Source: Pseudobdellovibrionaceae bacterium
GTDB lineage: Bacteria; Bdellovibrionota; Bdellovibrionia; Bdellovibrionales; UBA1609
Length of the DNA stretch: 41,138 nucleotides
NCBI GenBank assembly: GCA_025354795.1
Contig: JANXMF010000060.1
Coordinates: forward strand, 1-41,138
Reading direction: 5' to 3'
Shown: positions 169 to 28,324 of the stretch, piece by piece
How the letters are laid out: each line of letters starts with the position of its first letter
How positions within the stretch are numbered: position 1 is the stretch's first letter
Made by a program: the position numbers and the translations under genes
Notes under the pieces: generated by a model
The model's database searches: none
What the model saw: only the letters and a program-made list of their open reading frames with translations
Told to the model about the DNA's origin: nothing

Positions 169-2259
169 ATGCATCGCTTAATTTCATCATTGCTTCTTGG
201 TCTATTGGTCTCTTTCACCGCTCAGGCGCAGTTTCAAAAGGCGCAGAATCTCGACCTGAGCTGCGTGCACTTGTATCCCATACAAATGAAGTACATGGAA
301 AAGCATGTGAACTTTTCCAAGCTCTCCAAGAATCTTGAAACCCGCACTATAGAACAATTTGTCAAACGCCTCGATGGCTCGAAACTTTATCTGTTGGATA
401 AAGATGTGAAGGACATTGAGCGGATGATGAAAAATGCGTTTGATAAAACCAAAAACAAAGAATGTGCTTCGCTCGACCAAGCCAATCAGCTTTTTGTCAA
501 ACGCGTGGGCGAGCGCGTGACCTACGCTAAAAAATTCTTGGGCGCTAAATTTAAATATGATCCCAAGGCGCAAATCCAGCGCGATCCGCAAGACCGCCCG
601 CGCCCTAAAACTTTGACCGACGCCAACAAGTTTCATGAAAACTACATGCAATATCAAGTGGCCAGCTACCTCGCCACCGACATGAAACAAGACGAAGCCA
701 AACAGCAGATCATTCGCAATTACGAGCGCGCTCTCAAACGTGTTCAGGATTTCAAGACGGAAGATTTGTTTTCCGCGTATCTGGATTCTTTCGCGCGCGC
801 TTTAGATCCGCATTCAAGTTACATGTCCGCCGATCAGCTGGAGGATTTTGAGATTCAAATGCGCCTGTCGCTGGAAGGTATCGGCGCGACGCTCAGTTCG
901 CAGGACGGATTTACCGTAATTGAGCAGCTGATTGTCGGCGGTGCCGCCGACCTTTCGGGCAAACTGAAAAACAAAGATAAAATTATCGCCGTGGCCCAGG
1001 GGAAGGATGCGGCATTTACCAATGTGATCGAAATGGAACTTCGTGACGTGGTCAAATTGATCCGCGGACCCAAGGGCTCCGAAGTGCGCTTGAAGATTTT
1101 GCGCAAGCTGCCCAAAGACAGCAATCGCTTTGAAGTCACTTTGATCCGCGATCAAATTAAGTTGGACGACGAAGCCGCCTCCATCACTTATTTAGAGCGC
1201 GAGAGCGCCGGTCAGAAATACAAAATTGGTTTACTTAATCTGCCGTCCTTCTACGCCGACAATCGTAAGAATGGGCCTTCGGCCGCGACCGATATGAAGA
1301 AGCTTCTCGCCGACGCCACTACCAACAAAGCCGACGCCGTGGTGCTCGATCTCTCGAACAACGGGGGCGGCAGTCTACGCGATGCCGTGGATATAGCGGG
1401 CTTATTTTTTGGCACCGGCAATGTGGTGAAGCAGAGCCAACGCGTGACTTCGGAACTTGATCAGATGAATTATGAGACGTTGCGCGACACCGATCCCGCG
1501 GTGGATTGGGCGGGCCCCATGGTGGTTTTGACCAGCCGGGTGAGTGCTTCGGCATCTGAAATTGTTTCGGGAACTTTACAAGATTATAAGCGCGCCATCA
1601 TTGTGGGCGGCGACCACACCTTTGGCAAAGGCACCGTGCAGTCGGTGGAGTACCTTCCTCCCGGTCTTGGCGCGATCAAAACTACGGTCGGCATGTTCTT
1701 CACTTCCGGCGGCGAGTCCACTCAGCACCGGGGGGTGTCTGGCGACATCGTATTCCCCTCGGCTTACGCGCAGGATGACGTCGGGGAGAAAACTTTGGAT
1801 TACTCGCTCCCGCCCAAAAAGATCAAAGAATTCCTGTCGCCCACGGCTTACGTGAGCGAAGGCAAGGGTGCTTGGGCGCAAATCAATAAGGATCTGATCT
1901 CCAAGCTTAAGGTGAAATCGCAACCGCGCATTGACGCCTCCAAGGATTTCAAGAAAATTCGCGACGACTTGGACAAAATCAAGAAGCGCGGCAAGATGGT
2001 CATTGTTGGCGATCTTTTGAAGGACAAAGAGAAAGATCCTAAGAAGAAGAAAAACGAAGACGGTGAGGACGAAGAGAATGCTTCGCTCTCGCGCGAAGAA
2101 CGCAAAAAGAAGTACTTGCAGCGCGCGGACGTGGTGGAAGCCATGAATATAGCCGCCGATATGGTGGCCGAGATGCATTCCCCTAGCTTTAAACTTGGGT
2201 CTCAGCAGAGCAAGAAGCTAGGAGAGCACCCCACGGCCGATACCTCTTCCGAGAATTAG
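169..2259 (+). CDS. prc: Carboxy-terminal processing protease, Prc/Tsp type (peptidase S41A)
   Basis: Periplasmic tail-specific protease, 696 aa, close in length to E. coli Prc (about 680). Order of parts: signal peptide (about 1-21, ending AQA), the Tsp N-terminal helical domain, a PDZ domain (about 235-330, with LSLEGIGATL and GGAADLSGKLK), the S41 protease core, and a lysine-rich C-terminal domain. Aligned by eye to E. coli Prc, the catalytic residues are Ser461 (within SASASE), Asp472 (QDY) and Lys487 (FGKGTVQ). The family degrades or trims periplasmic proteins at the C-terminus, including cell-wall enzymes. I chose the ATG at 169 because AAGGA at 158-162 lies 6 nt upstream and the signal peptide starts there; an in-frame TTG at 151 would add six residues. 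The charged stretch around 2030-2110 is very lysine/glutamate rich. Confidence 0.93.
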   Translation: MHRLISSLLLGLLVSFTAQAQFQKAQNLDLSCVHLYPIQMKYMEKHVNFSKLSKNLETRTIEQFVKRLDGSKLYLLDKDVKDIERMMKNAFDKTKNKECASLDQANQLFVKRVGERVTYAKKFLGAKFKYDPKAQIQRDPQDRPRPKTLTDANKFHENYMQYQVASYLATDMKQDEAKQQIIRNYERALKRVQDFKTEDLFSAYLDSFARALDPHSSYMSADQLEDFEIQMRLSLEGIGATLSSQDGFTVIEQLIVGGAADLSGKLKNKDKIIAVAQGKDAAFTNVIEMELRDVVKLIRGPKGSEVRLKILRKLPKDSNRFEVTLIRDQIKLDDEAASITYLERESAGQKYKIGLLNLPSFYADNRKNGPSAATDMKKLLADATTNKADAVVLDLSNNGGGSLRDAVDIAGLFFGTGNVVKQSQRVTSELDQMNYETLRDTDPAVDWAGPMVVLTSRVSASASEIVSGTLQDYKRAIIVGGDHTFGKGTVQSVEYLPPGLGAIKTTVGMFFTSGGESTQHRGVSGDIVFPSAYAQDDVGEKTLDYSLPPKKIKEFLSPTAYVSEGKGAWAQINKDLISKLKVKSQPRIDASKDFKKIRDDLDKIKKRGKMVIVGDLLKDKEKDPKKKKNEDGEDEENASLSREERKKKYLQRADVVEAMNIAADMVAEMHSPSFKLGSQQSKKLGEHPTADTSSEN

Positions 2260-4425: not shown

Positions 4426-5219
4426 AAAAAAAGAAGCTGCCGCCGTTTGACCGCTATGCCCACTATTTTCGCGCGGTCCAATCGCCGGAAGCCGACTGCC
4501 AGTTTATTTCCGACAGTTATAAAGAGCTAAGGGGCCACCGCCCCCACGACCTGCGCGAAGATTTTTGCGCGGCTTTCGCACTATGCTGTGCATGGACCCG
4601 CCGCAATCGCCACAACCGCTCGATCGGCATCGATCTCGATCAGGAGCCGATCAGTTACGGGCAAACGCATTACTTGCCAAAACTGCGGCCGGAGCAGCGG
4701 AAACGCGTGCGCATTTTAAACGGCAGCGTATTGACCGCCAAGGTTCCTCATGTCGACGTGGTGATTGCGTTTAATTTTTCTTTTTGCATTTTCAAATCTC
4801 GCCTGCTTTTGCGTCGCTATTTTAAGAGTGTGCACAAAGGTCTGCGCCAGGACGGCCTATTTATTCTCGATGCTTTCGGCGGTTCCGATACGCAAGAAGC
4901 CAACGAGGAGAAATCGAAGATCGGAAATTTTTTTTACTACTGGGAACAAGGGAGCTTCGAGCCGATCACCAACGAAGCCATGTTTCATATTCATTTCAAA
5001 CGCAAAGGGGAGCGTAAACGCGAGAAAGTTTTTTCCTACGATTGGCGCTTGTGGACGATTGCGGAGATTCGCGAAACTCTGCATGAGGCGGGCTTTCGTC
5101 GCACCCATGTTTATTGGGAGGGCACCACCCGAAGTGGCGGGGGCAACGGAAAGTTCAAGCGCACCGAGGTCGGTGAAGAGTGCTATGGCTGGGTGGCGTA
5201 CTTGGTGGCGGAGAAGTGA
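4422..5219 (+). CDS. Class I SAM-dependent methyltransferase, LREDFC-type
   Basis: 265 aa. The SAM-binding motif I is replaced by the variant DLREDFCAAFALCCAWTRR, followed by the acidic loop SIGIDLDQEP (motif II) and later DVVIAFNFSFCIF, with GLFILDAFGG as the strand after the substrate helix. This combination is typical of an uncharacterised methyltransferase family often annotated only at the fold level; the substrate is unknown. GTG start at 4422 overlaps the E1 beta stop (GTGA), so it is probably translated together with the dehydrogenase subunits, though nothing in the sequence shows a functional link. The C-terminus (ECYGWVAYLVAEK) is family-like, suggesting a complete gene. Confidence 0.75.
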   Translation: MKKKKLPPFDRYAHYFRAVQSPEADCQFISDSYKELRGHRPHDLREDFCAAFALCCAWTRRNRHNRSIGIDLDQEPISYGQTHYLPKLRPEQRKRVRILNGSVLTAKVPHVDVVIAFNFSFCIFKSRLLLRRYFKSVHKGLRQDGLFILDAFGGSDTQEANEEKSKIGNFFYYWEQGSFEPITNEAMFHIHFKRKGERKREKVFSYDWRLWTIAEIRETLHEAGFRRTHVYWEGTTRSGGGNGKFKRTEVGEECYGWVAYLVAEK

Positions 5220-5315
5220 AAGCTAACGAACTGCCGGCCCAGGCCCACTGGGCGGTGGCCTTATCGCTTTGCACCTCGGCACCGACATGGATGATGTCGG
5301 CGCCCAACGGAAATC

Positions 5316-5819
5316 TTACTTTCTAAAATTCACCTTCCCCATGTAATCCATTTTACCAATATCCACGCCCGCATGGCGCAGAATTGCGTAAGCCATGGCC
5401 ATATGAAAATAAAAATTCGGAATCGCGACTTCGGTCACATACTCCTCACCGGGCAGCCACTCACCCTGGGCCCACTTGGGTGACACCTTCATGGTCGCTG
5501 CGTTTTTAAAATCTTCGGGTTTCATTTCGTCGAGACATGTCGTGGCTTTTTTAATACGCGCGCGCAGCTCAGTCCAAGTGGTTTCGTTGTCTTCATGTTT
5601 TGGCGCTTGTTTGCCAGAAAGATAAGACGCGCAAAACTTGGCGCTGTCGCATACGGACTGAATCTGTTTAACCAATGGATACATATCAGGAGCGAGGCGC
5701 ATGCCGACATAGTTGTTGACGTCGAACTTGCGGTGATCCGCATGGGCTGCGGCTTTCACCATCAGGCCATCGAGGTTGGTGAGCATTTTCTTAAATTCGG
5801 TGACTGTTTGATGATACAT
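5316..5819 (-). CDS. DUF1993 family protein
   Basis: 167 aa, matching the usual size of DUF1993 proteins, a family with a DinB-like four-helix fold and no assigned function. Visible family features are the N-terminal helix MYHQTVTEFKKMLTNLDGLM, the conserved segment MRLAPDMYPLVKQIQ with an aspartate-methionine pair, and the C-terminal AIPNFYFHMAMAYAILRHAG followed by DYMGK. In DinB-like folds histidines form a metal site; here H and FYFH are candidates, but that is inference. It stands alone on the minus strand, convergent with the methyltransferase and downstream of pyrE by 57 bp. A 7-bp inverted repeat (CCGACAT/ATGTCGG, 5282-5300) lies between the convergent genes. Confidence 0.8.
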   Translation of the reverse strand: MYHQTVTEFKKMLTNLDGLMVKAAAHADHRKFDVNNYVGMRLAPDMYPLVKQIQSVCDSAKFCASYLSGKQAPKHEDNETTWTELRARIKKATTCLDEMKPEDFKNAATMKVSPKWAQGEWLPGEEYVTEVAIPNFYFHMAMAYAILRHAGVDIGKMDYMGKVNFRK

Positions 5820-5876
5820 AATTGTTCTCCGTGGTTATTGCATGAAGACCCAGGTTAGGCACCTCAGCAACACTCG

Positions 5877-6410
5877 TCAATCCTTTGCGGCCTGCTTCAA
5901 TTGCGCTTGAGTAAAGAGGCTAGTCATTTCTAGCCTCGCGGTTTTTAATTTTTCCTCACCGCCCTGTTGGCGCGAGATCACGCACAGCACATGCTCGACG
6001 ACGGCCCCTTCACGGCGCAAGTCTTCGGCACTGAGAATCACTTGGCCGCCGGTAGTGATCACGTCTTCGATAATGCACACGCGGGTGTCGCGCAAAGTCT
6101 CAAGCCCCTCAGCGACCCGACAGGTGCCGTATGCTTTGGCTTCCTTCCGCACAAACACCGCCGGCAGGCCCGTCTCTAGCGAAAGAGCGGTGGCGATAGG
6201 AATTCCGCCCATTTCTAAGCCCGCCAGGATCTGTATACCTTTCGGTATGAGGGGCGCGAGCGCCACGGCAATTTGACGCAAAATTTTCGGTTGGGATTCA
6301 AAGCGATATTTATCGAAATACTCGGTGGAGGTAAGGCCCGAGCGCAGTTTGAACTGGCCAGTGAGGTGCGCGACTTTGAAAATGGAACGTGCGAGTTCTA
6401 GTGCGGACAT
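5877..6410 (-). CDS. pyrE: Orotate phosphoribosyltransferase
   Basis: Catalyses orotate + PRPP to orotidine 5'-phosphate in pyrimidine synthesis; cytosolic. The PRPP-binding motif is clear as VCIIEDVITTGGQ (about 111-123), the flexible-loop lysine region is VRKEAKAYGT (87-96), and the N-terminal substrate loop is KLRSGLTSTEYFDKYRFES. At 177 aa it is shorter than E. coli PyrE (213), as in many bacteria and archaea with the compact form. No other pyrimidine genes are adjacent, although dcd lies 1.2 kb away on the same strand. Confidence 0.93.
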   Translation of the reverse strand: MSALELARSIFKVAHLTGQFKLRSGLTSTEYFDKYRFESQPKILRQIAVALAPLIPKGIQILAGLEMGGIPIATALSLETGLPAVFVRKEAKAYGTCRVAEGLETLRDTRVCIIEDVITTGGQVILSAEDLRREGAVVEHVLCVISRQQGGEEKLKTARLEMTSLFTQAQLKQAAKD

Positions 6411-8194: not shown

Positions 8195-10299
8195 TTCTTT
8201 TGCTCATCGGCGCGCTGCTTTTGGTAAGCCTTGACCAGCTCCTCTTGGATGTTGCGGGGAACAGTCGCGTAGCGCGAGAATTCCATGGTGAACTCGCCTT
8301 TTCCTTGGGTGCCCGAACGCAGCTCGGTCGAATAACCAAACATTTCCGAAAGCGGAACTTCGGCTTCCACCGTGGTAAAGGCGTCGATAGTTTGCGTGCC
8401 CATGATAATTCCGCGGCGTTGGTTGATCTGACCAAGCACGTTGCCTTGGAATTCTTCAGGGGCTGAAACTTCGACCTTCATAATTGGCTCAAGCGCCTTG
8501 GGGCCCGCCTTGGCGTAGAACTCACGAAACGCGGCCATGGCGCAGATCCGGAAGGCCATCTCACTCGAATCCACATCATGGTAAGCACCATCCGACAAGA
8601 TAGCTTTGACCCCTACGATCGGGAAGCCAATCAACAGACCCTTAGTCAGCTGCTCTTGGAAGCCTTTGTCGACGGCAGGAATAAATTCGCGCGGAATTTT
8701 TCCGCCCACCACTTTGTTTTCAAACTCATAGGTTTTGTCAGGGCTATCGAGGGGCTCAAAGGTGCCCACGACTTTGGCGTATTGTCCCGAACCGCCGGTT
8801 TGCTTTTTATGAGTGTAATCATAAGGCGTGGCCTGTGAGATGGTCTCGCGATAGGCCACTTGTGGCTTACCGGAAATCACTTCGCAATTGAACTCACGCT
8901 TCATGCGCTCGATATAAATCTCAAGATGCAGCTCGCCCATGCCGGAGATAATGGTTTCGTTGGATTCTTCGTCGCGCTTCACGCGAAACGTAGGATCCTC
9001 TTTGCGGAACTTCTGCAGCGCTTTGGAAAAATTGTTGGCGCCTTCTTTGCTCTTCGGCTGCACGGCGAGCGAGATCACGGCGTCGGGTACGAACATCGAG
9101 GTCATAGCAATATTGACGGTGCCGTCGGTGAAGGTGTCACCCGAGGAGCAGTCGATACCAAACAGCGCCACGATATCGCCGGCGTGGGCGGTGTCGATGT
9201 CGACCATTTCATCGGCGTGCAGGCGCACCAAGCGCGGAATCTTCACTTTGCGGCCGTTGGCGGTGTTGGTGATGAAATCGCCTTTTTTCATGGTGCCTTG
9301 GTAAATGCGCATGTAGGTAAGCTGTCCGAAGCGCCCGTCTTCAAGTTTGAAGGCGAGCGCGATGAGTGGCTTGTTGGGAGCGGAACTCAACTCCACTTTT
9401 TCTTCGTTCTTATCGAGATCCAAGCCTTCGTTAATAATTTCCGAAGGATTGGGCAGATAATCGTGTACGCCGTCCAAAAGTTTTTGAACACCGCGATTTT
9501 TATAGGCCGAGCCCATGAAAACCGGAGTCAGATTCAACGCTAAGGTGCCTTTACGAATGGCGGCCATCACTTCGGCTTGGGTCGGTTCTTCTTCGTTGAG
9601 GAATTTTTCCGCCACATGGTCGTCAAAATCCGCGGCCTTGCCCACCAGATCGTGGTGGTACCTGGCGGCCTGCTCTTTCATATCCTCGGGGATTTCTTTT
9701 TCGGTGATAATTTCGCCGTTATCGCCGCTAAAATAGTAGGCTTTCATTTTGACCAGATCGATCACGCCATCATGCTTGTCCTCGAGGCCGATCGGGAGCT
9801 GCATGAAAACCGCGTTGTGGCGCAATTTTTCGCGGAGGGCCTCGACCACGCGAAATGGGTTGGCTCCGGCGCGATCCAATTTATTGATAAAAGCCAAACG
9901 CGGAACTTTGTAGCGGCGCATTTGGCGATCCACGGTGATCGACTGCGATTGCACGCCGGCAACTCCGCACAAAACTAAGATGGCGCCGTCTAACACACGC
10001 AGGGCGCGCTCCACTTCAATGGTGAAATCCACGTGTCCGGGAGTATCGATGATATTAATATCAGTTTCATGCCAGGCCACGTTGGTGGCGGCGGACTGAA
10101 TCGTGATTCCGCGTTCGCGCTCGAGATCCATATGATCCATGGTGGCGCCGACGCCGTCCTTGCCCTTGACTTCGTGAATCTGGTGAATCCGGCCGGTGTA
10201 AAAAAGAATGCGCTCCGTCAGAGTGGTTTTACCCGAGTCAATGTGGGCGGAAATACCGATATTTCGAACATTTTCTAAGCACCATTTCAAGCCAGACAT
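8191..10299 (-). CDS. fusA: Translation elongation factor G, mitochondrial EFG1 / spdEFG1-like
   Basis: 702-aa translational GTPase that moves tRNA and mRNA after peptide-bond formation. G motifs: [10 protein letters not shown] (residues 19-28), RGITIQSAA (switch I), DTPGHVDF, and [10 protein letters not shown]. Domains II to V follow, with [10 protein letters not shown] in domain IV and [20 protein letters not shown] in domain V. The N-terminal text ([23 protein letters not shown]) resembles mitochondrial EFG1 and the spirochaete-planctomycete-delta spdEFG1 group rather than the classical str-operon fusA; this is recognition by eye. Start: AAGGA abuts a first ATG at 10305 but is 6 nt from the second at 10299, so the latter is chosen. 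The gene is not in a str operon; it heads a pair with dcd and faces recQ divergently. Confidence 0.95.
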
Positions 10300-10387
10300 A
10301 ATCATTCCTTGCGCATGAGTTTTACTTTGAACGTCAATAAATGCCTGAACGGGTTCGTTTTTTCAACATTATTGCCACGATTACGCA

Positions 10388-20460: not shown

Positions 20461-23157
20461 ATGACGTTTCGCGAAATCTGGAAAAATGTCGCGCGCCAAG
20501 TGGTGTTGGTCAAAGGCATGAGTGGCGGCTTGCGCCCTAGCGTGGACCCAGCCTTAAGCGAACTCCTGATTCAAGTCTCAGATATGGACAATGCATCGGC
20601 ACTGACACTGCTCGCGAGTGCGACCGCGGGCTTGAGTGCCGACCAAGTCGAAGAGCGCTTGCAAAAATACGGGCGCAACACCGTGGCTTACGAACGGGCT
20701 ATTCCACCGCACATCATGCTCCTGCACGGATTTAACAATCCGTTTGTAATCGTTCTGATTATTTTAGCACTTGTCTCCTATTTGACCAGTGACCTCAAGG
20801 GCGCGGTGGTGGTCTCAGTGATGGTCGTGGTGAGTGTGTGCATGCGTTTTTTCCAAGAATACCGGTCCTCGAAAGCGGCGGAAGCGCTAAAGTCCATGGT
20901 AAAAACTACGGCGAGTGTTCGCCGCATCGGCTTTGCCAAACAAGAGATTGCATTTGAAGAGGTGGTGCCGGGCGATATTATTTTGCTCTCCGCTGGGGAC
21001 ATGGTGCCCGCGGATGTGCGCCTACTCACGTCACGCGACATTTTCATTAGCGAGTCTTCGCTAACGGGCGAGGCGATGCCCATCGAAAAATACGACACCG
21101 TGGGGCAGGCGCGCGAGAAATCCTCGCAACCAAACGGCGCCACGAAGCCGCTCGGTCTACTCGAGCGCTCCAATTTGTGTTTTCTGGGCACCAATGTGGT
21201 GAGCGGCACGGCCACCGCGATCGTCGTTCATACCGGTGAGCGCACGCTGTTTGGCTCTCTTGCCAAGAACATTGTCGGCTCGCGCAGTCTCACTAGTTTT
21301 GATCGCGGCGTGAATAGCGTCACCTGGTTGCTCATTCGCTTTATGCTGGTCATGGTGCCCATCGTTTTTGTGCTAAATGGCGCGCTGAAAGGGGATTGGC
21401 AAGAGGCCTTCTTATTTGCCATCGCGGTGGCGGTGGGCCTTACGCCCGAAATGTTGCCGATGGTGGTGACCGCCAACCTGGCCAAGGGCGCGGTGGCGAT
21501 GTCCAAACGCAAGGTGATCGTTAAGCGCTTAAACTCGATTCAAAACCTGGGCGCGATGGATGTGCTCTGCACCGACAAGACCGGGACGCTCACGCAAGAT
21601 AAAATTATTCTCGAGGAGCATTTGAACATTCGCGATGAACATGATGCGCGCGTGCTTAAGTATGCCTATTTGAACAGCTACTACCAAACCGGATTAAAGA
21701 ATCTTTTAGACCGTGCGGTGCTTGAACATTTTGAAATGCTCAACGAACTTTGGCTGCCCGAAGGCTACGAAAAGATCGATGAGATTCCTTTTGATTTTAC
21801 CCGCCGGCGGATGTCGGTGATCGTGCGTAAGCGCAATGGCGCGGCCACCTTGATTTGCAAAGGCGCGGTGGAAGAGCTGATGAATATCTGTAGTCATGTG
21901 GAACTGGACCGTAAGGTCGTGCCGTTGTCCATCGAGCTGGTACGCCAAGCGCATGAATTGGTGCTTAAGAAAAATGAAAATGGCTGCCGCATGGTCGCGG
22001 TGGCCTATAAGCCTATGGAAAGTACGGTGGCGCAATTTTCAGTCGATGACGAGCACAATCTCGTGCTCCTTGGCTTTATCGCCTTTTTAGATCCTCCGAA
22101 GGAGACCGCGGCCGAAGCCATTCGTCTTTTGCATCAAAACGGTGTGGCGGTGAAAATTCTTACCGGCGACAATGATATCGTCACCAAGCGGGTATGCCTC
22201 GAAGTTGGAATTCAGATTCAGCGCGTGGCTCTGGGTTACGAGATCGAACGTCTCAACGACCGGGAGCTCGCCGACATGGCTGTTCACACCACGGTCTTCG
22301 CCAAACTTGCGCCGATGCAAAAGGCGCGCATCGTGCGAGCGCTTCAGAGCAAGGGTCATACCGTGGGCTTTCTGGGTGACGGGATCAACGATGCCCCGGC
22401 TTTGCGCGACGCCGATGTGGGTATTTCGGTGGACACTGCGACTGACATCGCGCGTGAGTCCGCGGATATTATATTGTTGGAAAAGAGTCTATTGGTATTG
22501 GAAGAAGGCGTGATCAAGGGCCGCGAAGTGTACGGCAATATCATCAAATATATCAAAATGACCGCGAGTTCGAACTTTGGCAATGTGTTCAGTATTCTGA
22601 TCGCCAGTGCTTTTATTCCGTTTCTCCCCATGCTTGCGGTACAGATTTTGGTGCAGAATCTGCTCTATGATTTTTCGCAAACCGCCTTACCTTGGGATAA
22701 AATGGATCCGGAGTTCTTGCGTAAGCCGCGTAAGTGGGAACCTCAGGGCATCGCGCGTTTTATGGTTTTCATTGGTCCAGTGAGTTCGGTGTTTGATATC
22801 ATGACTTTTGTGGTGATGTGGTTTGTATTCAAAGCCAATACGGTTGAGCATCAGGCGGTTTTTCAATCGGGTTGGTTTATCGAAGGGCTGCTGTCGCAAA
22901 CGCTGGTGGTGCATTTGATTCGCACTCAGAAGATTCCGTTTTTGCAGAGCACGGCGTCGGCCCCGGTGTTGCTCACGACTTTATTTATTGTCGGGTTGGG
23001 CGCGTGGTTGCCATATGCATCGATTGGTGAGGCGATGGGCATGACGGCGCTGCCGTGGCAGTATTTTCCTTACTTAGGAATTATGCTTTTGGCTTACGGA
23101 GTGTTGGCGCAGCTGGTGAAGACTTGGTATATTCGGCGGTTTCGCGCCTGGTTGTGA
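20461..23157 (+). CDS. mgtA: Magnesium-translocating P-type ATPase
   Basis: 898 aa, P3B-type inner-membrane ATPase that imports Mg2+. Actuator motif SSLTGEAMPIEKY, phosphorylated Asp372 in LCTDKTGTLTQDK, and hinge GDGINDAPALRDADVGISVD are intact. The segment IKMTASSNFGNVFSILIASAFIPFLPMLAVQILVQNLLYDFSQTALPWDKMD is diagnostic of the MgtA/MgtB group and includes its Mg2+ site asparagine. The ATG at 20461 follows GAGAGGG; a TTG at 20440 is less likely. I see no obvious long leader that could hold a Mg2+ riboswitch like the one upstream of E. coli mgtA. The 3' end overlaps the convergent C39-like gene by 77 bp. Confidence 0.93.
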   Translation: MTFREIWKNVARQVVLVKGMSGGLRPSVDPALSELLIQVSDMDNASALTLLASATAGLSADQVEERLQKYGRNTVAYERAIPPHIMLLHGFNNPFVIVLIILALVSYLTSDLKGAVVVSVMVVVSVCMRFFQEYRSSKAAEALKSMVKTTASVRRIGFAKQEIAFEEVVPGDIILLSAGDMVPADVRLLTSRDIFISESSLTGEAMPIEKYDTVGQAREKSSQPNGATKPLGLLERSNLCFLGTNVVSGTATAIVVHTGERTLFGSLAKNIVGSRSLTSFDRGVNSVTWLLIRFMLVMVPIVFVLNGALKGDWQEAFLFAIAVAVGLTPEMLPMVVTANLAKGAVAMSKRKVIVKRLNSIQNLGAMDVLCTDKTGTLTQDKIILEEHLNIRDEHDARVLKYAYLNSYYQTGLKNLLDRAVLEHFEMLNELWLPEGYEKIDEIPFDFTRRRMSVIVRKRNGAATLICKGAVEELMNICSHVELDRKVVPLSIELVRQAHELVLKKNENGCRMVAVAYKPMESTVAQFSVDDEHNLVLLGFIAFLDPPKETAAEAIRLLHQNGVAVKILTGDNDIVTKRVCLEVGIQIQRVALGYEIERLNDRELADMAVHTTVFAKLAPMQKARIVRALQSKGHTVGFLGDGINDAPALRDADVGISVDTATDIARESADIILLEKSLLVLEEGVIKGREVYGNIIKYIKMTASSNFGNVFSILIASAFIPFLPMLAVQILVQNLLYDFSQTALPWDKMDPEFLRKPRKWEPQGIARFMVFIGPVSSVFDIMTFVVMWFVFKANTVEHQAVFQSGWFIEGLLSQTLVVHLIRTQKIPFLQSTASAPVLLTTLFIVGLGAWLPYASIGEAMGMTALPWQYFPYLGIMLLAYGVLAQLVKTWYIRRFRAWL

Positions 23158-23641
23158 GCTGAGCCGTGATTAAGCGAGCGCCGCGCTGGTTCCAATATAA
23201 ACTAAATTCATTTAATTCGAGGTGCTTGTCGCGACCCTCGCGCGCGAACCAGGGATCCATTAGTACAATCGCTTCCTTGGCTATTTGTTTGACCAGGCTG
23301 TAATGACCGGCGTCTTCGTCCCACCATGTAACAAAAACAATCGCCCCGCTGGCATAGGCGCGTTTGAGCTGAGAAATAGGGGCGTCCTCGTGCATTTTGC
23401 AATCAAAGCCATAGAGCCGCGCCAATTCAACAATATGCAGTGGCGGGGTAAAGCCCAGTTCAAGCGTGCCTAGGGATTCCGCAACCGCGATTTCTCCGGG
23501 CGAAGACATACCAAACAGTTGCAGTAGGCTATCGAAACAAGCCGGCCCGCAGGTGAAGTCGAGAGTCTGTGCCACTCGCGGCAAATCTTCACTTCGCAAG
23601 CGCGACCTCTGGGGTTCAGCCTTCATCTTTGACGAGCACAT
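23081..23641 (-). CDS. C39-like (papain-fold) peptidase domain protein
   Basis: 186 aa. The catalytic cysteine region QTLDFTCGPACFDSLLQLFG, the histidine in DEDAGHYSLVKQI and the aspartate in VLMDPW fit the C39 layout, known from bacteriocin-exporter processing domains. It is a stand-alone cytosolic-looking domain: no signal peptide, no ABC transporter alongside. Substrates for such solo C39-like proteins are unknown. Two starts are possible, ATG at 23641 or at 23626; neither has a convincing ribosome site and both overlap the end of the EamA gene, suggesting coupling. The C-terminal 20 residues lie within the mgtA 3' end on the other strand. Confidence 0.7.
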   Translation of the reverse strand: MCSSKMKAEPQRSRLRSEDLPRVAQTLDFTCGPACFDSLLQLFGMSSPGEIAVAESLGTLELGFTPPLHIVELARLYGFDCKMHEDAPISQLKRAYASGAIVFVTWWDEDAGHYSLVKQIAKEAIVLMDPWFAREGRDKHLELNEFSLYWNQRGARLITAQLTTRRETAEYTKSSPAAPTLRKPKA

Positions 23642-24464
23642 AGATCACGCCGACGAATCCGAGTGACGGCAAGAAGGCGGTGAAGCGCATGGGTTCATTG
23701 AGCACCAAAGCCTCGAGCGGTTGCATGAGAAGCGACGAAAGCAGAGTCGGAAACTCCGCGGAGGCCAAGTCGGTAACGGTGTAAAGGCGCATGGACGCGA
23801 GGTAGGCACCGAACATTCCCACCCCCGAAAGTATTCCCGCAAGCCACAGATCGGCACTCCATTGATGAGCGGGTACCGGGAAAATAAAGTATTCCACGCC
23901 GCCGTAAACAATGATCGCCAGTGCGGGAACCAAAGTGGTGATGGCTTCGTTTTCCTCAGCCATACTTTTTTTGATATACATGTAGCCGAAGCAGAGCATC
24001 ACGGTTCCGATTAGGAGTGACGCTAATCCTAGCGCCCGATTGGGTTGCGGCTCAAGGTTAGCGAAATACCACACCAACAGCGCGATTGCAGCGATGGCGC
24101 CAACGCGGGTGCGTGCGCTCGCTGGTACTCCTATCCATGGTCCCAGAAACAGCAGGAGGGGCACATCTACGTTGGCGATCACGGCAACAGTCGAGGCGGT
24201 GAGCCAACTGTAACTTAGAGAAAAAAACGTCAGCGCTAAGCCGGCGAGCAGGGCGCGCAGGACTTGGGTGCGCGGTGATTTAGGGCGCATCTTGAGTCCG
24301 CGGGCGCGGGCGAAGGCTAAGACTAGGAGCAGGCAGCTCACTCCGCGTACGACGAGGCTCTCTGAAAATGCCACGTTGTGCACCGCTAAGAAGCGCATGC
24401 TCAAGCCCGTGACGACCAAACTGGCGATCAGGACTGAGGCCCATAATCGAAAGCGCGAGTTCAT
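23616..24464 (-). CDS. EamA/DMT-superfamily membrane transporter
   Basis: 282 aa with ten predicted membrane helices in two repeats, the usual layout of drug/metabolite transporters of the EamA type. Landmarks: SESLVVRGVSCLLLVL in repeat 1, VAVIANVDVPLLLFLGPWIG, and the second-repeat TVTDLASAEFPTLLSSLLMQPLEALVLNEP. Substrate unknown; amino acids, metabolites or nucleotide-sugars are transported by relatives. GGGGAGAG precedes the ATG. It probably shares a transcript with the C39-like gene that overlaps its end. Confidence 0.85.
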   Translation of the reverse strand: MNSRFRLWASVLIASLVVTGLSMRFLAVHNVAFSESLVVRGVSCLLLVLAFARARGLKMRPKSPRTQVLRALLAGLALTFFSLSYSWLTASTVAVIANVDVPLLLFLGPWIGVPASARTRVGAIAAIALLVWYFANLEPQPNRALGLASLLIGTVMLCFGYMYIKKSMAEENEAITTLVPALAIIVYGGVEYFIFPVPAHQWSADLWLAGILSGVGMFGAYLASMRLYTVTDLASAEFPTLLSSLLMQPLEALVLNEPMRFTAFLPSLGFVGVIYVLVKDEG

Positions 24465-24646: not shown

Positions 24647-25051
24647 CTAGCGTTCCCATGGCATGCTGTCCCACGCGACAAATTCTTCAATGGCGCCATC
24701 TATAATACTGTAGCTTTGGCCTCGCGAACTCGTCCTTTTATATTTAACCTTGGCATCCTTGAACAACCGCTCCACTAACTTTTCAACTTTTCCACTTGTG
24801 TCTCCATACTCACCATCTTCGTTGGCCCCTTGTAATAGTTCAGCCACTGCTCTTCCCTTTTTCGTATCCTGAACCGACGCATATTGTAGCATTGACGCCA
24901 CAACAACGGCCAATCGATGCGTCCTACCATGTGGAACAAGTTCTTTGAGCATGGAAGTCCAAGTATCGTACACTTGTTTACCAACAGCATCCTCAATCGA
25001 AACTGACTTGTGATTTTGTTCTTTTAGTGACCTTGCAGGTTCGCGTTCCAA
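24647..25051 (-). CDS. Hypothetical protein, base composition unlike neighbours
   Basis: 134 aa, soluble and mainly helical, with no domain that I recognise. The N-terminal 20 residues are polar, the middle has RLAVVVASMLQYASVQDTKKGRAVAELLQGA, and the C-terminal part (VKYKRTSSRGQSYSIIDGAIEEFVAWD) could be a small winged or beta-hairpin unit. Codons are noticeably A/T-richer than in the flanking genes. The start is a TTG with AGGGGG about 5 nt upstream. It sits beside an IS4-type fragment and is flanked by 180 bp without genes, which suggests acquired DNA. Confidence 0.5.
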   Translation of the reverse strand: MEREPARSLKEQNHKSVSIEDAVGKQVYDTWTSMLKELVPHGRTHRLAVVVASMLQYASVQDTKKGRAVAELLQGANEDGEYGDTSGKVEKLVERLFKDAKVKYKRTSSRGQSYSIIDGAIEEFVAWDSMPWER

Positions 25052-25147
25052 ATATTCCCCCTTAGCGTTTCATCAATGCGAAATACCCCCTCCTAATGTA
25101 GGTTTGAATTCGTCTAAAAATCAAACAACAAAAAGAGGACGCATCGC

Positions 25148-25397
25148 ATGGATAGCGGTACCAATTTTTCGGATCTTCGTCACGCTCAACAAGTTCGTTC
25201 AAAATTGAATTCTATGGAGGGGCTGCCGTTTTCAGACGTACTTTCGTCGGAGACAATAGCCGACGGCATGGCTGAACACAGTGCAGATTGTCGAGAGCGT
25301 GTTTTCACGACTGACGTTGTCCTTTGGACGTTTTTGTCGCAGGTTATCAACAAAGACCAATCCTGCCAGGCTGCGGTTGCGCGAACGATATCGTTTC
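25148..25397 (+). mobile_element. IS4-family transposase, 5' fragment
   Basis: Codons 1-83 of the next gene read like the N-terminus of planctomycete-type IS4-family transposases: GLPFSDVLSSETIADGMAEH, CRERVFTTDVVLWTFLSQV and NKDQSCQAAVARTISF. The DDE catalytic domain that should follow is absent. The element's left end should lie in 25052-25147; I cannot identify terminal inverted repeats. AGAGGA at 25134-25139 is an intact ribosome site from the element. Confidence 0.7.
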
Positions 25398-25915
25398 TTC
25401 TAAGCCATGGGAAACCGCTGGTGCTAGCGGCCGCGGGCCGCGACGGACAATTGTTGTCCACTATGCGCGGTGAGATCATCGGCGATCTCGCGCTGTTGGA
25501 ACGCAAGCTCGAGTGCCCGTGGACATTTTCGGCGGCGCCCACTTTTCCGGTTCTACTGTTGAGCCGGGCGGCGACGCTTTCCTCTCATCGACGCGAGGGA
25601 TTTAATTTGGTTTTGCGTTACTGGTTTCTCCGTTTGGCCGTCACACACGGCGTCCGCTTCGTCATTGGCACTTTTGTGGCCGGCTCCGCGCGCGAACGCA
25701 CTTTGAGGGCGATGGGCTATGATTTTTTTGTCAACACTTTGGGCTGGCAGCAATCGACTTATCGCTCACTGGCCCCGGTCACGGTGGCCGTCCTGGATAT
25801 GCAAAGAAACGGTGAGCGCGCACTTGCATATTGTTTGCAACATGCGGGTGAGGGAATCGCCCGTTTTTCCTATGAGGGCGGCTTTCCAGAACTTAAATAT
25901 GTGAGGGATTTATGA
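25148..25915 (+). CDS. Chimera: transposase N-terminus fused to a GNAT-like acyltransferase domain
   Basis: 255 aa. Residues 1-83 are an IS4-type transposase start. From about residue 88 the text changes to a GNAT/acyl-homoserine-lactone-synthase-like fold: KPLVLAAAGRDGQLLSTMRGE (first strands), FPVLLLSRAATLSSHRREGFNLVL (the central strand and acyl-CoA loop) and TLRAMGYDFF (the GF-type end motif). This resembles N-acyl amino acid synthases of the FeeM kind; that assignment is by eye. No start codon exists close to the junction, so any product probably uses the transposase start. The ATG of a methyltransferase overlaps the stop (ATGA). Either a recent fusion that hijacked an IS promoter, or a 5'-truncated gene that survives by chance. 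Confidence 0.6.
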   Translation: MDSGTNFSDLRHAQQVRSKLNSMEGLPFSDVLSSETIADGMAEHSADCRERVFTTDVVLWTFLSQVINKDQSCQAAVARTISFLLSHGKPLVLAAAGRDGQLLSTMRGEIIGDLALLERKLECPWTFSAAPTFPVLLLSRAATLSSHRREGFNLVLRYWFLRLAVTHGVRFVIGTFVAGSARERTLRAMGYDFFVNTLGWQQSTYRSLAPVTVAVLDMQRNGERALAYCLQHAGEGIARFSYEGGFPELKYVRDL

Positions 25916-26718
25916 GTCAAACTGGCTCTTATCAATTCGAAAAGTTAGAGAGCCGCCACATTGAAAGTGAATATCTCGCCGAACGGGCCGGCCTACGTCT
26001 TGAGGGATTTGTGGATCTCCTCAAGCGCCACCGGTTTCCCGAGCAAGGCACTGTTCTGGAAGTCGGCACTGGCCACGGCATTCGCGCACGCTTAATCGCC
26101 GACAGTTTCCCGCGAGTGGAGGTGACGGCGATCGACCGCAGTCCTGAACTGCTGGCGCTGGCTAGACACGGTCGGCGGCGGAATCTCGGTTTTCTCGAGG
26201 CCGACCTTTATGACTTACCGTTTGCCGACAATTCCTTCGATTTTGTTTATGCGCGATTGGTGTTTATGCATCTCAGTGATCCCTTGCGGGCGCTACTGAG
26301 TTTAAAACGCGTGCTGCGTCCCGGAGGCCGAATCCTGATCGAAGACGCGGACCGCGACTGCATGTTCTTTGAACCGCGGCCTGTGACTTTCGTCGCGTTC
26401 TGGTGTCAAGTGCAAGAGGGTCAGCGGCGATTGGGCGGAGATCCAAATGTCGGTCGCAAACTGGCGCCTTTTTTGAAACAGCTTGGATTGAGCCAGATCA
26501 ACGTCGAAGTGCAAAACATTCTTGGCGGTGCGGAGGAGATTGCCATGTTGGCCCGAACGCTAATGCCGAGTCTGAACACCTATCTCGAGCCTGAAGCGCG
26601 GGCCTCCGGAGAAGTGGCCATCGCCGATCTCCAAGCGTTGGCCAGCGATCCGCGCGCCACTTTTTACCATTTTTGGTTTGCGGTGAGCGGGGCCAAGCCC
26701 GACTCGACATTGGGCTGA
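25912..26718 (+). CDS. Class I SAM-dependent methyltransferase, UbiE-like
   Basis: 268 aa. Motif I is VLEVGTGHGIRARLIA (about 49-64), followed by AIDRSPELL (acidic loop), EADLYDLPFADNSFDFVYARLVFMHLSD (motifs II/III) and LKRVLRPGGRILIEDAD. This is the Methyltransf_11 type used on small molecules. Overlap with the acyltransferase-like gene (ATGA) points to a shared pathway, perhaps modification of an acylated small molecule; that is inference. The C-terminal 100 residues have no recognisable substrate motif. The base composition matches the core genome, unlike the transposase fragment. Confidence 0.82.
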   Translation: MSQTGSYQFEKLESRHIESEYLAERAGLRLEGFVDLLKRHRFPEQGTVLEVGTGHGIRARLIADSFPRVEVTAIDRSPELLALARHGRRRNLGFLEADLYDLPFADNSFDFVYARLVFMHLSDPLRALLSLKRVLRPGGRILIEDADRDCMFFEPRPVTFVAFWCQVQEGQRRLGGDPNVGRKLAPFLKQLGLSQINVEVQNILGGAEEIAMLARTLMPSLNTYLEPEARASGEVAIADLQALASDPRATFYHFWFAVSGAKPDSTLG

Positions 26719-26755: not shown

Positions 26756-28324
26756 ATGCGCGTTCTCGGAAATATTTATGCCGTGGCGTTGATCTTCGCG
26801 GCGGTAACAATGGCCATCTATGGCGTCGCGCTTAATAACGATTTCGTGCTCGACGATGAATTGCAGATCGTCAACAACGAGGTCATTCGTTCGCCTAGTA
26901 ACATCGGTATTTTCTTTTCCGCCTCCACCTTCAATCAAGAGAGTCCCCACGCCATGGGGGGAATCTATTTTAAACCGCTCATGTCGTTGGCCTACTCGAT
27001 TTTGTGGTGGCTTAGCCCCGAACAAACCTTGCAATTCCACTTGTGGCAATTGTTGCTGATTGCCGCGAACGCGCTTTTGATATTTTTGCTTTTCCGTAAA
27101 TTGCTGTCGGAGAGCACGGCTTTTGTCTGCGCGGTGATTTTCTTAGTGCATCCGCTGCACACCGAGACGGCGGTTTACATCGCGGACCTGCAGGACGTGA
27201 TGTTCAGTTTCTTTGGGCTGCTGGCACTTAATTTTCTAGCGCGCTGGAAGACCATGGGCTTTCGGCAAGTGGTCGTGCTGTTTTTACTTTTAACCGGCTC
27301 ATTGCTTTCGAAGGAAAGCGGAATTCTCTATTTGGCGACCGCCGTCGCCTATGTGGCGCTGTTTCGACGTGAGTTAATGAAGTCAGCCCTCGCGGCGGGT
27401 GGCGCGACTTTGGCGTTTTACCTTTGGTTGCGGTTGGGAGTGGCGCATCTGAACCAATTGACTTATGCGATGAACAAAATCGGCGCGGCGCCTTTGTCCG
27501 TCCGTTTATTGACCGCGCCTTTGACATTAGCGCTCTATATTGGAAAATTTATTTATCCAGCAAATCTGAGTAGCACTCAGGATTGGATCGTCGAGACGCC
27601 CTCATTCGTCGAATTTTGGTTTCCGCTGGCGCTAATGCTTGGCATTCTTGGCGCCGCGGGCTCTCTTTCCTGGCGCCGCGGAAGCAAATTTACTTTTTTC
27701 ACGCTGTGGGTAGTGATGGGATTAGGCCTACATTCCCATATCGTGGTGCCGCTCGACGGCACCTTTGCCGATCGCTGGTTTTACTTTCCCTGCGTTGGTT
27801 TGCTCGGCTTGCTGGCGCTAGCGTATGAAGAGTGGCTGCTGCCGAGACACCGATCACTGGCCGCGGGCGTGGCGGGGGTGCTAGTGGTCGCATTTGCGCT
27901 GCGAAGTTTCGTGCGTGCTCAGGATTGGAAAGATCAGCTCACGCTCTGCACTCACGATCTGCAAATTTCGCCTGACGCCTATGATCTGCACAATTGCGTC
28001 GGTGTAGAACTTTTCCGCCGCGGTCAGGTGCGCGAGGCCAAGGCGGAGTTTGAGCGCTCGACCGAACTCAAGCCCCAATGGGATGTGAATTGGAATAATC
28101 TTGGCGCTGCCTACAATCATTTGGGGGATATTGAACGCGCCAAGCAGAACTACTTGCAGGCTATTCAAAATGGGCCGTATTTCATGGCGTACCACAATTA
28201 TGCGAGTCTATTGGCGGCCGAGGGTCATACTCGGGAGGCTCGCACTTTTATTGAGGAAAAGGCATTGCCACGTTTTCCCGCGAGTGCGGCGTTGATCCAG
28301 CTTTATCAGAGCCTTCCGCCCTAA
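26756..28324 (+). CDS. Membrane glycosyltransferase-like protein with C-terminal TPRs
   Basis: 522 aa. About ten membrane helices (residues 8-390) are followed by a soluble TPR domain (about 400-520). The first loop carries NNDFVLDDELQIVNNEVI, the acidic pair expected in GT-C enzymes, and the overall order (GT-C membrane part plus TPR) is that of TMTC/DUF1736-like O-mannosyltransferases, which use a polyprenyl-phosphate sugar. WYFPCVGLLGLLALAYEEW is family-like. TPR units: CVGVELFRRGQVREAKAEFERSTELKP, NLGAAYNHLGDIERAKQNYLQAI and YASLLAAEGHTREARTFIEEK. The start at 26756 has AAGGG directly abutting, so spacing is poor; a slightly later start is possible. Confidence 0.72.
   Translation: MRVLGNIYAVALIFAAVTMAIYGVALNNDFVLDDELQIVNNEVIRSPSNIGIFFSASTFNQESPHAMGGIYFKPLMSLAYSILWWLSPEQTLQFHLWQLLLIAANALLIFLLFRKLLSESTAFVCAVIFLVHPLHTETAVYIADLQDVMFSFFGLLALNFLARWKTMGFRQVVVLFLLLTGSLLSKESGILYLATAVAYVALFRRELMKSALAAGGATLAFYLWLRLGVAHLNQLTYAMNKIGAAPLSVRLLTAPLTLALYIGKFIYPANLSSTQDWIVETPSFVEFWFPLALMLGILGAAGSLSWRRGSKFTFFTLWVVMGLGLHSHIVVPLDGTFADRWFYFPCVGLLGLLALAYEEWLLPRHRSLAAGVAGVLVVAFALRSFVRAQDWKDQLTLCTHDLQISPDAYDLHNCVGVELFRRGQVREAKAEFERSTELKPQWDVNWNNLGAAYNHLGDIERAKQNYLQAIQNGPYFMAYHNYASLLAAEGHTREARTFIEEKALPRFPASAALIQLYQSLPP

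Follow-up and report, generated by a model that had tools for sequence, protein, structure and literature searches.

An in-frame transposase-acyltransferase fusion in a Pseudobdellovibrionaceae genome is most likely the scar of an insertion sequence-associated deletion in a hydrazine-type (cupin/MetRS) gene cluster

Gene clusters with a cupin/MetRS hydrazine synthetase are known for s56-p1 (Spb38-40), triacsin (Tri26-28), azaserine (AzsL-N) and pyrazomycin (PyrN). Enzymes of this kind carry out lysine N6-hydroxylation, ATP-dependent ester formation and a zinc-cupin rearrangement that creates the N-N bond, and the release of hydrazinoacetic acid has been assigned to a DAO homologue (PMC11705231, PMC10445470, PMC8664883). 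In this study, we describe clusters, conserved mainly in Bdellovibrionota, which share with these systems a cupin-MetRS protein, a lysine-monooxygenase-like enzyme and a DAO-type oxidoreductase, which would correspond, less surely for the DAO protein, to the three activities reported to make hydrazinoacetic acid (PMC11705231, PMC10445470). Moreover, we compare them with a locus of a Pseudobdellovibrionaceae bacterium (assembly GCA_025354795.1), located in the 41,138 nucleotides of contig JANXMF010000060.1 that we analysed and refer to as the window, from which, unlike the known hydrazine clusters, the genes for N-N bond formation appear to have been deleted.

The cupin and MetRS domains of the intact clusters (PF07883 and PF09334) reside in one protein, which shares 30% identity (E = 1e-57) with its homologue in a plasmid-borne, azaserine-like cluster of Streptomyces lavendulae. 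His47, His49, Glu53 and His87 of one copy (L003) are spaced, in a by-eye reading, as are the zinc and catalytic residues Asp63, His65, Glu69 and His103 in the cupin of RHS1, so that L003 would have His47 where RHS1 has Asp63 (PMC8664883). The best solved match of the hydroxylase, by sequence only, is the L-lysine monooxygenase of PDB 4d7e (E = 3e-83), and the DAO-type FAD oxidoreductase carries PF01266; the hydroxylase has no recognisable similarity to its counterpart in the S. lavendulae cluster, and the DAO protein none to the FAD oxidoreductase of that cluster. Judging from these similarities, the intact pathway would proceed from lysine N6-hydroxylation through formation of the N-N bond by cupin-MetRS and trimming by the DAO enzyme to acylation and methylation, the trimming step being less sure in view of the lack of likeness to the S. 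lavendulae enzyme. What sets the intact clusters apart from the known hydrazine clusters is that they carry instead an acyltransferase resembling acyl-homoserine lactone (AHL) synthases and a methyltransferase, together with EamA, C39 and LysR genes, whereas none of their conserved genes was seen to encode an NRPS or PKS. A comparable step, the acylation of a hydrazine, is known from clusters of a like kind, in which a GNAT of the AzsS/Tri31 type succinylates hydrazinoacetic acid (PMC10445470). However, the intact acyltransferase and the GNAT of the azaserine-like S. lavendulae cluster are unrelated in sequence (0.4% probability in hhalign), and because the former resembles AHL synthases and FeeM rather than that enzyme, it is by analogy that we infer acylation and then methylation of a hydrazine. 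The open literature searched holds no description of the intact cluster, and a search by title and abstract gave nothing relevant on hydrazine clusters in Bdellovibrio. In their nitrogen-nitrogen bond chemistry, the intact clusters look like a variety that has not been described.

The gene order of the intact clusters is well conserved. Genes for a C39 peptidase, an EamA exporter and a LysR protein on the minus strand are followed on the plus strand by those for cupin-MetRS, DAO, the lysine hydroxylase, the acyltransferase, the methyltransferase and often a cupin. All intact loci have the hydroxylase and DAO directly upstream of the acyltransferase and the methyltransferase downstream of it; the acyltransferase frame starts beside the hydroxylase stop or overlaps it. 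Cupin-MetRS and LysR are present in every intact locus whose contig extends that far. C39, EamA and LysR occur in that order in five loci (L035, L036, L037, L042 and L043); the other contigs end before these genes, L038 having EamA and C39 on the opposite side. Two minor features of these loci may be recorded here. The hydroxylase gene of L004 (positions 4507-5884; the same contig as L043) is frameshifted into two overlapping frames, either by a sequencing error or by decay of another cluster copy. In genome G118, a second MetRS-like match of 22% identity lies a few kb from the intact cluster (L036, positions 172-1197, minus strand) and could be the housekeeping enzyme.

In the window, the C39 and EamA genes stand in the same order and orientation as in the five intact loci (44-51% identity), and on the other side are a beheaded acyltransferase and a methyltransferase with 52-68% identity to its cluster relatives (Table 1). 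The distance from the EamA start to the codon equivalent to acyltransferase codon 46 is ~5.3-5.5 kb in the intact loci versus ~0.95 kb in the window, so that ~5.4 kb comprising LysR, cupin-MetRS, DAO, hydroxylase and the acyltransferase 5' end is missing. The place of these genes is taken by a segment with a GC content of ~0.43-0.48, compared with 0.51-0.61 in the adjoining cluster genes, in which no remnants of LysR, cupin-MetRS, DAO or hydroxylase were found. For the orphan frame inside it, neither plasmids nor the 140 other searched genomes of the order yielded a relative.

Table 1. Coordinates of the features at the window locus and the evidence for each
Feature	Position	Strand	Evidence or remark
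C39-like peptidase	23081-23641	-	Pfam Peptidase_C39; same place in L035, L036, L037, L042, L043
EamA-like exporter	23616-24464	-	orthologues in the same position of five intact clusters, 48-51% identity
Foreign low-GC segment	24465..25399		~0.95 kb; composition, synteny
Orphan ORF	24647-25051	-	134 aa; inside foreign segment
GAGGA, ribosome-site-like	25135-25139	+	8 bases 5' of ATG 25148 (sequence)
Chimeric ORF	25148-25915	+	255 aa, open throughout (sequence)
IS4-type transposase 5' fragment	25148..25399	+	84 codons out of ~400-455; tblastn, NCBIfam NF033592, alignment
Junction zone, transposase to acyltransferase frame	25400..25420	+	codons 85-91; breakpoint placed to zone only
Acyltransferase, GNAT/AHL-synthase-like, without first ~45 residues	25421..25915	+	alignment with intact relatives; AlphaFold models
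SAM-dependent class I methyltransferase, complete	25912-26718	+	Pfam Methyltransf_11, E = 6e-24

The segment ends within a chimeric frame whose residues 1-84 resemble the N-terminus of an IS4 transposase and whose residues ~91-255 resemble a GNAT-type acyltransferase. The original prediction, made from the DNA letters alone, had already proposed such an in-frame fusion, with a ribosome site ahead of it and a methyltransferase overlapping its end, and all three features are borne out: the overlap is an ATGA, the ribosome site is a GAGGA that resembles one, and tblastn aligns residues 14-86 with annotated IS4 transposases encoded on cyanobacterial plasmids (33-39% identity, lowest E value 2e-9), the matches spanning ~80% of the query. 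The NCBIfam model transpos_IS4_1 (NF033592) also matches residues 29-79, with an E value of 4e-4 that is under its curated cut-off. In an alignment with Nostoc and Nodularia transposases, similarity ends at about residue 83-88, ahead of the DTSAYCQAR stretch that they have in common, and firm similarity to acyltransferases begins at about codon 93; the IS4 DDE catalytic domain is not in the chimera, since the frame enters the acyltransferase after about codon 84-90. That this might be an ordinary acyltransferase family whose normal N-terminus happens to look transposase-like could be argued from the weak Pfam Nterm_IS4 match, which reaches only E = 0.058 and is under the cut-off, but the tblastn matches to annotated transposases and the absence of any such N-terminus from the intact relatives leave this explanation with almost no probability.

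One genome scan gave three relatives of the acyltransferase part, at 55-59% identity, and further ones came to light when 141 genomes of the order were searched. An acyltransferase with its own N-terminus is thus present in eight further genomes of the order (G097, G113-G118 and G129) and on a separate contig (L002). After identical contigs from two collections (L003 and L042; L004 and L043) had been counted once each, there were nine independent intact genes, all from other bacteria, mainly Bdellovibrionota (L002, L035, L036, L037, L039, L040, L042, L043 and the more divergent L038). They encode ~208-213 residues including an N-terminus of ~45 residues, none carries transposase sequence, and the firm alignment of the window protein starts at about their residue 46. 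A stretch of the form LRxxxYxxAxG occurs in the N-terminus of all nine. The fusion itself was absent from every relative found, and no acyltransferase relative was seen among plasmids and viral contigs.

AlphaFold models of four sequences, built on shallow alignments with the best of five reported for each, are of modest quality. The intact relative is predicted to be GNAT-like (pLDDT 68, pTM 0.71, the other four models scoring 39-58), and residues 3-28, which form its strand 1 and helix 1, belong with the stretch after them to the part lost from the window. The best PDB fold matches of this model are BjaI, MesI, RpaI, LasI, FeeM and GNAT acetyltransferases, the closest being the CoA-dependent AHL synthases (BjaI, MesI and RpaI) and FeeM (BjaI, E = 5e-8; FeeM, E = 5e-6; TM ~0.5-0.6), with a sequence identity of 10-15% in those matches. 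This agrees with the earlier suggestion of a GNAT-like domain akin to AHL-type or acyl-amino-acid synthases. In sequence searches the intact protein matches no Pfam or NCBIfam family, so that it does not belong to the LuxI-type/AHL synthase family by sequence; the acyltransferase part of the chimera likewise matches no family in either collection, and the acyltransferase has no sequence match in the PDB. The model of the chimera has a pLDDT of ~30 in the transposase part and of 60-95 in most blocks of the acyltransferase part from residue 91 on, and all the listed matches of a fold search with it were to GNATs, with nothing for its transposase part.

Taken together, these findings make it very probable that an IS-associated deletion in a hydrazine-type (cupin/MetRS) cluster left this locus as a scar. 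The ancestor would have had the order C39-EamA-LysR-[cupin-MetRS]-DAO-lysine hydroxylase-acyltransferase-methyltransferase. DNA of foreign origin carrying an IS4-type element may have inserted between EamA and the acyltransferase, after which a deletion running from about codon 84-90 of the transposase gene to about codon 46 of the acyltransferase gene would have removed ~5.4 kb of the cluster, including what were presumably the committed enzymes of the pathway. The two frames would have been joined in phase by chance, as is expected for about one in three such joints, giving a chimera of 255 codons that reads on into the methyltransferase coupled to it by ATGA. Of the large rearrangements that insertion sequences cause, deletions next to the element are some of the commonest (PMC11708052), and deletions that start and end in genes of the same orientation do produce chimeric proteins (PMC7671302). 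The deletion-generated chimeric genes of M. tuberculosis likewise come from a multigene deletion with ends of the same orientation and an in-phase joint, but here one partner is a foreign transposase fragment (PMC7671302).

The part played by the insertion sequence is circumstantial. Its right end is absent from the window, and neither terminal inverted repeats nor a target duplication could be delimited; around the Nostoc and Nodularia copies, too, no inverted repeat emerged at the threshold applied. The assembly has one copy of the transposase N-terminus, and no C-terminal half was found in it. Among the 140 other genomes of the order searched, none has this type of transposase, and in the phylum it occurs in two of 368 other genomes, at ~32% identity. 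No empty site could be read in genomes of the same genus, because the gene downstream of the locus, at 26756, was matched there only distantly (≤35% identity).

Both junctions are known from the assembled contig only, and the genome is fragmented into 243 contigs, so it might be supposed that two pieces were misjoined and that the true locus is an intact cluster. However, both flanks come from one cluster, in the expected order and orientation, and the joint falls within the transposase gene and not at an IS end, where a collapsed repeat would fall, which is more in line with a deletion than with an assembly error. The single copy of the transposase fragment and the missing C-terminal half speak against a misjoin as well, and the lost cassette should then turn up on another contig, whereas no counterpart of cupin-MetRS, the hydroxylase or DAO was seen elsewhere in the 94%-complete genome. 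We regard a misassembly as very improbable.

A more serious alternative, though still an unlikely one, is that the chimera works, the transposase start and ribosome site driving a shortened acyltransferase, or that its frame has been kept only for translation of the methyltransferase; perhaps the two enzymes still act on a substrate from elsewhere. The open frame, the ribosome-site-like sequence and the retained coupling are in keeping with this. The open frame also counts to some extent against a scar, as does the lack of accelerated change in the retained part, which makes continued function possible. The terminal branch of the window has a length of 0.373 for the retained acyltransferase part, equal to that of the methyltransferase, neither showing relaxed constraint, and all 47 columns that are invariant across the other nine sequences are unchanged in the window. 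Without constraint, this bounds drift to less than ~0.064 substitutions per residue at 95% (exp(-47d) = 0.05), and therefore the event either happened recently or left a remnant that is still under constraint, two alternatives that these data do not distinguish. A recent event accounts equally well for the absent drift, and against a working chimera stand the lost residues with strand 1, helix 1 and the stretch common to the nine relatives, the low confidence of the predicted transposase part and the missing upstream enzymes. That the chimera is both expressed and active, with strand 1 and helix 1 replaced or dispensable, and was kept with the methyltransferase after the loss of the hydrazine genes, seems to us rather improbable.

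A deletion scar also changes how the original prediction should be read, for its observation was mostly right and its interpretation mostly not. The transposase similarity held up and no relative of fused architecture came to light, and the suggested search for relatives with an intact acyltransferase 5' end yielded the nine genes. The idea of a productive domain capture is probably mistaken: it reads the event the wrong way round, because the intact relatives have their own N-terminus, which was lost here together with four upstream genes. An insertion sequence was supposed to have supplied expression signals, for which there is the ribosome-like site and no promoter-like site just 5' of 25148, and it was held that no other start codon was available, when GTG 25421, TTG 25451 and 25454, ATG 25463 and others lie in frame inside the acyltransferase part. 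The proposal of a new acyl-metabolite pathway has some merit for the intact clusters elsewhere, not for the window locus.

Before an in-frame transposase fusion is taken for gene birth, it should be compared with its intact relatives. The fusion in itself is most likely an ordinary deletion scar, and the novelty lies in the parent cluster, which is of more interest and in which cupin-MetRS N-N chemistry is combined with a methyltransferase and an acyltransferase resembling AHL synthases. The Bdellovibrionota are known chiefly for predatory bacteria, and if the intact copies make an acylated, methylated hydrazine, this would be a new product class from the phylum.

Two further observations concern the acyltransferase family. 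In genome G116 (L038, positions 8402-10327, plus strand), the lysine hydroxylase and the acyltransferase form one continuous frame of 642 codons, a second and different fusion with the same family and a candidate single protein. Distant relatives with 25-32% identity are present in other genomes of the order (L006-L009, L024-L031, L033 and L034), outside the hydrazine-type cluster as far as their short flanks show, and they possibly represent an undescribed GNAT family.
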